64,000 bases of DNA from Sorangium aterium. Its GTDB lineage: Bacteria > Myxococcota_A > Polyangia > Polyangiales > Polyangiaceae. The DNA lies in NCBI RefSeq assembly GCF_028368935.1, contig NZ_JAQNDK010000004.1, positions 372,001 to 436,000 on the forward strand, written 5' to 3'. Below, one piece after another: positions 48,555 through 50,220 of the stretch. The position numbers were made by a program, and so were the translations under genes. The notes under the pieces are model-generated. The model made no database searches and was not told the origin of the DNA. It was given only the letters and a program-made list of their open reading frames with translations. Within the stretch, counting starts at the first letter, position 1; every line of letters begins with the position of its first letter.

Positions 48555-49338
48555 TTGCGTGGATTCCCGATCTCACAGCGCCAGGTGGCACCGTTGTGCA
48601 CCGTGGCGCATCTCGGGCGCCTTTGTGCATCGACCAGGCCAGCGCGCTCCCCTGCGCGCGAGCTTCTCGCTCCAGCGGGGGCGTTCCGCTGCGTGGCCCG
48701 AATGCATGCCGCGGCCCTCGTGCCGTTTCCGGCGCTCGCGCAAAGGATTGCGTGATCCCGCATCGCCTTACGGCGCCTCCGACGGCACGCGCCCCTCGCG
48801 CCGCGCGATACCCCGATCGCGTGCAACAGCGCTTGCGGCAAGTTGTCAGGAGAGTGAACTCCCGGCCTCGACCATCCCACCGATCCGATGACCGAGGGAA
48901 GCCTCCAGGGACAGGCAGCCGGCGGCCAGGGACACAGAGATCGCCACCAGGGACATGGGCAAGAGCCGGGCGCGGGCCGAGGTGCTCCTGCAAGGGACAG
49001 GGAGGCTGCGTATCAGGGACGTGCGGTGAAGCGTCAGGGACCCACATGCGTGCCGCGAGGGACAGGGGGCGACGCGCCAGGGACACCCCGGCGCATCGTC
49101 CTCTGTCCCTGGAGCCGTTCTGTCCAGGCACGCCACGTGTATCCCTGTGGCCGTGTCGCGAAGCTCCCGAGCCTCGCGCGCTTCGATAAGGGCCCTGCGC
49201 CTCTCGGGGCGCACGAGCTCGGGAGTGACGCGTCGAGGTCCTTGTGAAGGGGAGCCCGGTTCACGGCTCTCCGGAATGGATGCCCGGGATTGCCGCTCCG
49301 GACAGGGGGTCCGGCGCCGCAACCCAGGGGAGGTCGAG
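48555..49338. other. 784-bp divergent intergenic region
   Basis: No gene is supported. The left 330 bp contain scattered GTGCA/TGCAT sequences, with promoter elements presumed for the lipoprotein pair. The right part is dominated by the phased CAGGGACA array (48906-49085) and an inverted copy (49104-49111). The ribosome site of the next gene is GGGGAGG at 49326-49332. Confidence 0.7.
48906..49111. repeat. Helically phased array of CAGGGACA octamers
   Basis: Copies start at 48906, 48927, 48948, 48992 (AAGGGACA), 49014 (CAGGGACG), 49035 (CAGGGACC), 49057 (GAGGGACA) and 49078, so spacing is 21, 21, 44, 22, 21, 22, 21. An inverted TGTCCCTG lies at 49104. The period of ~21.5 bp is two helical turns, placing all copies on one DNA face. 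The 22-bp steps break reading frame, which argues against coding. Confidence 0.88.
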
Positions 49339-50220
49339 ATGGCGAAGAAGAAGAGCGATATCGAGCAGTGGTCGGACGTCGTCCAGCAGATGAGCGCCGG
49401 CAATCTCCCGGCGATCACGGTGCCCTTGCACGTGCTCCTCGGGGAGGCGGTCGACGTGGCGAAGTTCTGCGACAAGTACTGGAAGACACAGGTCGATGCC
49501 CAGAAGCGGGTGACCCGCCTGGGCCTCGAGTCGGCGGTCCCGAAGGACGGCAAGAAGGGGGACGCCGCGCGCCTCGGGCCGAGGACGGCAGAAGAGATCC
49601 TCTCGCTGCAGCGCGCCACGCAGGAGGCGCAGACGCGGTATCTCCTGACCGTCGAGAAGAACAAGAGCCCTCGCGAGCGCGGGAAGTTCTTGCTGGGGGA
49701 GATCTCGGCGACGCTGACCTTCTATTTCGACGACGGCGTGGACGACGCAAAGGACGAGATGCTGGCCCGCATCGAGGCGGCGCACGCGGAGGATCCCGAC
49801 ACGGCCGACGCCCTGGCGAGCGCGCTGGACGACTACGCGCTGCTCGGGGAGAAGCACCGCGACGCGCTCGACGGGCTCGGCGGCTTCGAGTCGGCTCACC
49901 TCGACGAGGCGCGCGCCGTGGCGGCCGAGCTGCGGAGCCGGCCGGCGCAGGCGGAGGCGATCTCCAGGCAGGCACAGGAGGCGCTGCTGCTGCGCAACAA
50001 GCTGGCGACGCTGCTGGTCGAGCGCATGGGCCTCGTGCGGAACGCGGCGCGCTTCGTGTTCCGTGGCCAGCCGGAGATCGTGCGCGATGTGACGAGCGCG
50101 TACGAGCGCCGCAAGCGCGCAGCGGCCCGGCGGGCCAAGGCGACGGCGGCACCCTCGCCCGCAGCACCCGCGCCGGCGACGCCTTCGCCAGCGGCGCCAG
50201 CGATGCCCCTGGAGGGCTGA
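49339..50220 (+). CDS. Uncharacterised helical protein
   Basis: 293 residues from ATG 49339 (MAKKKSDIEQWSDVVQQMSA), with a good upstream purine-rich ribosome site. No signal or TM is present. It is predicted mostly helical (LHVLLGEAVDVAKFCDKYWK, DDVDDAKDEMLARIEAAHAE-like acidic helices, ALLLRNKLATLLVERMGLVR) with a Pro/Ala tail. No family is recognised. It is divergent from the DUF4398 lipoproteins, and the phased octamer array lies in its promoter region. Confidence 0.72.
   Translation: MAKKKSDIEQWSDVVQQMSAGNLPAITVPLHVLLGEAVDVAKFCDKYWKTQVDAQKRVTRLGLESAVPKDGKKGDAARLGPRTAEEILSLQRATQEAQTRYLLTVEKNKSPRERGKFLLGEISATLTFYFDDGVDDAKDEMLARIEAAHAEDPDTADALASALDDYALLGEKHRDALDGLGGFESAHLDEARAVAAELRSRPAQAEAISRQAQEALLLRNKLATLLVERMGLVRNAARFVFRGQPEIVRDVTSAYERRKRAAARRAKATAAPSPAAPAPATPSPAAPAMPLEG

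Follow-up and report, generated by a model that had tools for sequence, protein, structure and literature searches.

Rows of short repeats tied to a particular protein are known from several systems. SARP regulators, which have an OmpR-type winged helix (Trans_reg_C) and a BTAD domain, use two or three direct heptamers placed beside the -10 element with a spacing of 22 bp. In plasmid iterons, direct repeats recur about every two helical turns by the Rep gene, with inverted copies at the promoter of this gene and extra arrays elsewhere. REP sequences with their RAYT transposases, as well as CRISPR loci, also link a repeat array to a protein family and include dispersed copies. BldC, a MerR-like protein of Streptomyces, assembles cooperatively and head to tail on directly repeated sites whose number varies, each of 9 bp and with an AT-rich core (PMC5859096).

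The arrays that we describe here resemble the BldC sites in the variable number of direct repeats in regulatory DNA, but they consist of motifs of 7–10 bp every 20–22 bp, GC-rich in most members, and they accompany an unrelated protein of about 290 amino acids whose motif changes between paralogs. No match to a MerR-type winged HTH was found in this family in scans of Pfam, NCBIfam and PDB. Like SARP sites, they are short direct repeats that may serve as regulator sites; unlike them, they reach 13 units beside the genes of close members and 23 elsewhere, and the family gave no match to the Trans_reg_C and BTAD domains. They share with iterons repeats about two helical turns apart beside the gene of a putative binder, together with inverted copies near this gene and further arrays elsewhere. 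By contrast with iterons, they are chromosomal and have several paralogs per genome, and we found neither a match to a Rep family nor a plasmid or phage homologue of the protein, which leaves an iteron of the plasmid type without support; an iteron was among the readings that an earlier note on this DNA had offered. They differ from REP/RAYT and CRISPR systems in their motifs of 7–10 bp, in the presence of arrays at orthologous loci and in that no transposase or Cas match appeared among the scanned proteins. CRISPR was set aside in particular because the array motif of 8 bp contrasts with long near-identical repeats (about 23–47 bp) separated by unique spacers, and no Cas family was found among the seven neighbouring proteins scanned. 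A search of the open-licence literature for tandem or direct repeats and motifs in Sorangium found no report of such arrays, and in a review of myxobacterial genomics the two mentions of “repeat” that came up refer to CRISPRs and to the protein S genes.

Judging from sequence comparisons, we are inclined to think, with slightly more confidence than doubt, that these arrays are multi-site binding platforms for the protein encoded directly downstream, which would be a DNA-binding protein with a cognate array, probably regulating itself, and with additional dispersed sites.

The array in the window

The window, that is, the whole stretch of 64,000 nucleotides of Sorangium aterium DNA that was analysed, contains a gap of exactly 784 bp (48555–49338) between a DUF4398 lipoprotein-like gene on the minus strand and a gene of the family considered here on the plus strand. 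Eight direct units lie in this gap on the plus strand, all with at most one mismatch from CAGGGACA and separated by steps of 21, 21, 44, 22, 21, 22 and 21 bp. The features are as follows:

48906–48955, plus strand: distal block, three CAGGGACA units at 48906, 48927 and 48948, step 21 bp
48970–48977, plus strand: degenerate unit slot within the 44-bp double step
48992–49085, plus strand: proximal block, five units at 48992, 49014, 49035, 49057 and 49078, steps 22, 21, 22 and 21 bp
49058–49110, no strand assigned: 25-nt inverted repeat with a 3-nt loop and arms 84% complementary, made of the last two units, the linker and the inverted copy
49104–49111, minus strand: exact inverted copy TGTCCCTG, 26 bp start to start after the last direct unit
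49339–50220, plus strand: array-associated family gene, 293 amino acids to the stop
49417–49419, plus strand: codon of Thr27, in the column of Asn26 of the L160 paralog, the residue that tracks the base before GGAC

The eight phased units, the one double step, the single inverted copy and the size of the gap between a lipoprotein-like gene and an unknown gene are as the earlier note had read them; the 25-nt inverted repeat at the array end did not figure there. The placement of all units on one face of the DNA holds as a phasing of about two turns and fails as exact facing: by arithmetic, assuming 10.5 bp per turn, unit eight is displaced by ~4 bp, and a common face is only approximate across the family because the mean step per array ranges from 20.5 (L163) to about 21.7 bp (L181).

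Matches to CAGGGACA with one mismatch number 61 across the window, against 35.7 expected, a count reached in none of 100 shuffles. Genome-wide, too, the spacing exceeds chance: three GGACA at 20–22 bp occur 30 times in the 13.47-Mb genome (G000) versus twice for the reversed control pattern, some of the matches, here and in other genomes, being coding repeats. The same count with three AGGGAC at 19–22 bp is unspecific when taken alone (six matches, four of them in the window array, against three for the control). Three GGGACA at 21–22 bp are also too unspecific alone, with real matches in 28 and control matches in 16 of 183 genomes (the 16 counted by eye). A sigma-54 promoter 3′ of the array was considered and rejected; GGCACG-N4-KTG is visible by eye in L007–L009, but the GC of its -12 element is not conserved.

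The terminal inverted repeat raises the alternative that the array is transcribed and that its repeats or its hairpin act in the leader RNA, which we regard as very unlikely. The sense orientation in cis would agree with it, as would a consensus fold of the hairpin in which three of the 31 predicted pairs show two-sided change and a folding z of -1.85 on the plus strand. Nevertheless, several pairs of this fold are broken, the minus strand folds almost equally well (z -1.49), no Rfam family was matched at gathering score, the 21-bp ladder common to direct and inverted copies is expected of DNA and not of RNA, and the direction of dispersed arrays with respect to genes varies. A decoy RNA of the CsrB/RsmZ type, which would display CARGGA motifs in hairpin loops, was considered and dropped as well; in the predicted folds, the last units of the window array lie in a stem.

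Within the genus, the orthologous place in two other genomes (G004 and G005) carries the same array, with 72% identity over about 445 bp, and in G005 it is flanked by the same lipoprotein and family genes as in the window. A double step of 43–44 bp located five units before the end also occurs in L008, L009, L013, L014 and L015; the five-unit block after a double step is found in five of the seven other CAGGGACA elements compared, L011 being unbroken and L002 degenerate.

Arrays upstream of other family genes

To describe the geometry we used 29 cis arrays whose motif was entered by hand, counting neighbour distances up to 70 bp. These distances measure 19–22 bp in 171 of 188 cases and exactly 21 bp in 136 of the 188. 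The cis arrays hold 5–13 motif copies and many end in one or two inverted copies on the 21-bp ladder; in total there are 223 direct copies and 26 inverted ones, the latter present in 20 of the 29 arrays. Among the 21 inverted copies placed within 100 bp after the last direct unit, 17 stand at 26–28, 48–50 or 68–70 bp, offsets that are shifted by 2 because the 8-mer frames differ by one base between motif types, so that a single frame gives a ladder of ~26, 47 and 68 bp. A GGAC core is kept in 24 of the 29 arrays and all 24 are oriented toward the family gene. The divergent promoter region proposed in the earlier note fits the locus, except that the array belongs with the right-hand gene. The geometry expected for cooperative binding is well supported by a step of 20–22 bp that is kept while the motif changes and by many inverted copies that fall on the 21-bp ladder. 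Four arrays (L142, L163, L160 and L146) are built of two alternating unit types, giving a super-repeat of 41–42 bp that possibly corresponds to two half-sites or a dimer.

We called an array when a chain of at least five 7-mers, one mismatch allowed, occurred at 20–22 bp within about 700 bp upstream of the gene. In the main sample of 49 members with at least 400 bp of upstream sequence, which are related and not independent, 28 have such a chain at period 21 and 21 have none, whereas chains of at least five occur in 0–3 of the 49 at the other periods tested, with the exception of period 11, whose double step is 22. The null, taken from 16 arbitrarily chosen 20-kb stretches of related genomes, gave a chain in five of 203 upstream windows of genes. 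Arrays are often, though not universally, found upstream of family genes (28/49 vs 5/203). For L174, counted among the 28, the scored chain is a low-complexity run; this member also has an CATCCGGACA array. Left out of the 49 were L178 and L183, with less than 400 bp upstream, and the C-terminal fragments L185, L186, L192 and L193, of which L185 shows a chain of five. No array was detected for six rows of the tree set (L148, L150, L151, L157, L179 and L182). In L169 and L170 an array, with motif CCCGGACA, is found only 5.5–6.3 kb upstream, and the residue in column 26 is K. In a later set of members, most of which come from other families of the class, an array is present in five of the ten cases with enough upstream DNA (L303, with 83 bp, was excluded and L312 was left out); one more has four units, and none has a chain of at least five at other periods. 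Among distant members, seven of 20 have a chain, five of them judged clear, the other two being probably coding (L278) or of low complexity (L264).

Neutral minisatellites, multiplied by slippage and devoid of function, are the explanation to which we give the least credence. Some arrays are indeed nearly perfect tandem copies (23 units in L255 and 17 in L237), so slippage does occur, and the arrays next to IleRS/AAA genes have drifted. Against a neutral origin, spacers differ while the motif is kept in many arrays, that of the window included, and spacing, direction and the phase of the inverted copies are kept across genera. The constant ladder and direction combined with a variable motif form the trace that would be expected of a cooperative DNA-binding protein with evolving specificity.

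The protein family

The gene downstream of the array belongs to an undescribed multi-paralog family of the Myxococcota, whose members are candidate DNA-binding proteins. The window protein gave no match to Pfam up to an E-value of 1, nor any to PADLOC. When 31 members were compared with Pfam, NCBIfam, PHROGs and PDB, only weak and scattered matches appeared: NCBIfam “PQLLE” in ten of the 31 (the best of these matches, E down to 6e-4), Pfam ScsC_N in seven (best E 0.003), a PHROGs “HTH DNA binding protein” family in three (best E 0.048) and a PHROGs “replication initiation protein” family in a single member (E 0.12). These scans found no recognised DNA-binding domain, and no transposase-like match among the members scanned. 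The fold is predicted to be all-helical; the AlphaFold2 model, built from only four sequences, is poor (pLDDT 57.6, pTM 0.49) and retrieved nothing with Foldseek (best E 0.35).

The family was detected in 29 of 183 genomes in an order-level search (six-row alignment, E ≤ 1e-5), which also gave further places, mostly fragments, outside the fetched sample; in 26 of 377 genomes at phylum level (31-row alignment, E ≤ 1e-8); and in 38 of 317 at class level (31-row alignment, E ≤ 1e-15). The genome of the window has three array-bearing paralogs, with CAGGGACA, CATCTGGACA and CATC[A/G]GGACA, as well as two divergent paralogs without array (C3:76774 and C2:2046). Besides the window gene, the array-bearing ones are C4:484463 and C4:1778474. 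Homologues also stand behind arrays in Minicystis (CCGGGACA), G001 (CCGGGACA) and G045 (CCCGGACA). Genes on the other side of the array vary among family loci. In the window, a ParE-like toxin gene (Pfam PF05016, 50354–50920) lies just 3′ of the family gene and is preceded by a small ORF, possibly an antitoxin.

Motif divergence and the N-terminal residue

The motifs of paralogs differ (CAGGGACA, CATCTGGACA, CATCAGGACA, CCTGGACG) while step and direction persist; distant families show GTATATGC, CCCATGACC and TTCTTGACC, and members fetched later or distant ones include GCGGGACA, GACTTTGCA and GCGCCCGTC. The motif is kept within clades of orthologues. In the protein tree, the CATCTGGACA, CATCAGGACA and CATCCGGACA clades (CATC[T/A/C]GGACA) are separate, each with at least three genomes and with supports of 93/84, 100/99 and 94/80, respectively, of which only that of the CATCAGGACA clade passes both marks. 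That the motif differs between members while the spacing stays constant suggests that every member recognises a separate row of sites.

Only three positions, all N-terminal, differ three ways between these clades, namely 18, 26 and 27 of L160 (S/Q/T, N/S/K and I/L/V). Column 26 has K or R in five of the six members with C before GGAC and in none of the 18 others (24 members in all). This is the best of 261 columns (Fisher 1.4e-4, about 0.04 after correction for the 261 columns), an association that is confounded by descent and in which the clades on which the hypothesis was formed are part of the test. When the columns are ranked by mutual information, 18 comes first and 26 second. The exceptions, with C and without K or R, are L161 (T) and the distant L262 (N). 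A contact of Lys or Arg to the G opposite C would be chemically sensible.

The identification of the adjacent protein as the binder, which we infer, draws on linkage, on clade-wise agreement and on this single residue-base association. The main alternative is that another, shared regulator or nucleoid protein family binds the arrays, the helical protein being merely its most frequent target; we consider this unlikely. It would account for the lack of a recognised DNA-binding fold in the helical protein, for arrays beside unrelated genes, including AAA_21 and DUF4276 genes, and for CATCTGGACA arrays in genomes that yielded no intact gene to match. It fits less well with motifs that vary among the paralogs of a single genome in step with the protein clades, with a residue of the adjacent protein that tracks a motif base and with the family gene being the neighbour that recurs.

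The CATCTGGACA clade includes several altered genes. L177 (G003) and L180 (G005) lack the N-terminus, and L182 (G001) is counted among such copies; L180 and L182 have no array, whereas L177 retains three array units directly before its shortened frame. This N-terminally truncated gene is the only CATCTGGACA gene of G003. The G005 homologue is located behind an ABC-transporter-like gene, with no sequence gap there.

Proposed mode of action

If the encoded protein is indeed the binder, each of its copies would occupy one unit, at intervals of about two helical turns, with cooperative assembly, and binding at the cis array would regulate the gene's own promoter. Paralogs would read different motifs by means of N-terminal residues, at columns 18 and 26 of L160, and would therefore avoid cross-talk. 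The dispersed arrays would be further target sites of the protein, serving regulation or local chromosome organisation. More tentatively, and with somewhat less than even confidence, we propose a hitherto undescribed class of sequence-specific DNA-binding proteins, distributed among several classes of the Myxococcota, in which each gene has its own “address” array, protein and motif co-diverge while the 21-bp geometry stays fixed, insulated paralogs each mark a handful of chromosomal sites, and one or two N-terminal residues set the code (Lys/Arg for C, Asn for T and Ser for A before GGACA, in the CATCNGGACA clades).

A candidate DNA-binding family without clear database match gains likely recognition sequences, which makes binding immediately testable. 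Close paralogs with arrays one base apart and matching residue differences constitute a natural experiment in specificity and in the evolution of paralog insulation. Should the dispersed arrays prove to be bound, they may reveal an undescribed way of organising or regulating large myxobacterial genomes.

Dispersed arrays

Arrays with identical or related motifs turn up at a few further positions, most of them intergenic, in these genomes. A sequence model of the proximal block plus the inverted copy, searched in six genomes of the genus, gave strong matches in three of them (G000, G004 and G005), those with the CAGGGACA orthologue of the window, two weak matches in G001 and none in G002 and G003. 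Strong CAGGGACA elements away from the gene are present in the genomes that carry the CAGGGACA gene; the model retrieved elements at the non-orthologous places G000 C2:2347547 and, less complete, C3:1808487, G004 2326606, and G005 C259 and C249.

Of 28 dispersed (trans) arrays of five genomes, 19 have a commonest 8-mer that coincides exactly with a cis motif of their genome, a raw match count in which CATCTGGACA dominates. Left out of the 28 were L238 (an array inside an ORF), L071, the L244–L246 group, L261 and all of G002. Six of the 19 are CATCTGGACA arrays of G003, resting on its truncated gene. The nine that strictly do not match are three CATCTGGACA arrays of G005, one tie, three of the degenerate IleRS/AAA locus and two of G004 with CACGGACA or mixed CCCGGACA. 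We had considered that the IleRS/AAA array switched motif together with the G001 gene; this idea was dropped, because a strict count shows the locus to be degenerate in G000, G004 and G001.

The CATCTGGACA arrays of G002, G003 and G005, three genomes in which no intact gene to match was seen, weigh against linking gene and array strictly one to one, unless they are served by other paralogs or by genes missing from the assembly. Searches of the draft genome G002 gave no family gene, and four of its arrays (L257, L258, L259 and L260) lie at or near contig ends, so that family genes may be concealed where the assembly breaks at arrays. Both G003 and G005 have members of the CATCCGGACA clade.

Such dispersal would also be compatible with a selfish or mobile repeat, the array being the end of an element or a dispersing repeat that the protein helps to spread, as for REP sequences and their transposases. 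We judge this improbable. Dispersed copies in varied contexts, the inverted terminal copy with its palindromic end and near-identical linkers at non-orthologous loci all point in its direction, to be weighed against the lack of any transposase-like match or plasmid or phage homologue in our searches and against several dispersed arrays that three to five genomes of the genus have in common at orthologous positions. One of these lies at the 3′ end of a PPSR-type regulator gene, as read from its sequence, in G000, G002, G003, G004 and G005. A transposon end, considered for the array, was dropped.

Returning to the arrays as binding platforms, the direction of the dispersed ones bears on the choice between a regulator and a nucleoid protein. 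They are not preferentially directed at gene starts: of 19 locus groups, about eight point to a gene start and 11 to a gene end (by eye, on home-made gene calls). In three locus groups, arrays lie near AAA ATPase genes that are similar to the PADLOC candidate HEC-01 and are in many cases accompanied by DUF4276 or a comparable partner. These arrays are L072, L075, L077, L235, L240, L242, L243, L253 and L254, with scans for L077, L235 and partly L243: AAA_21 was confirmed in the L077 and L235 groups and recognised by eye in the L243 group, and a DUF4276 gene was confirmed next to L077 and L243 but not L235.

Two minor observations concern other places. A long 21-bp repeat CCCCAGGACACCAAGGGCCAG in G001 (C1:11603834–11604855) looks coding and is probably unrelated to the arrays. 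In G165 (L144, 692–2570, minus strand), an CCAGGACA array lies between a family gene and a divergent AAA_21/OLD-like ATPase gene, and the upstream DNA of L143 (G166) looks the same as that of L144.
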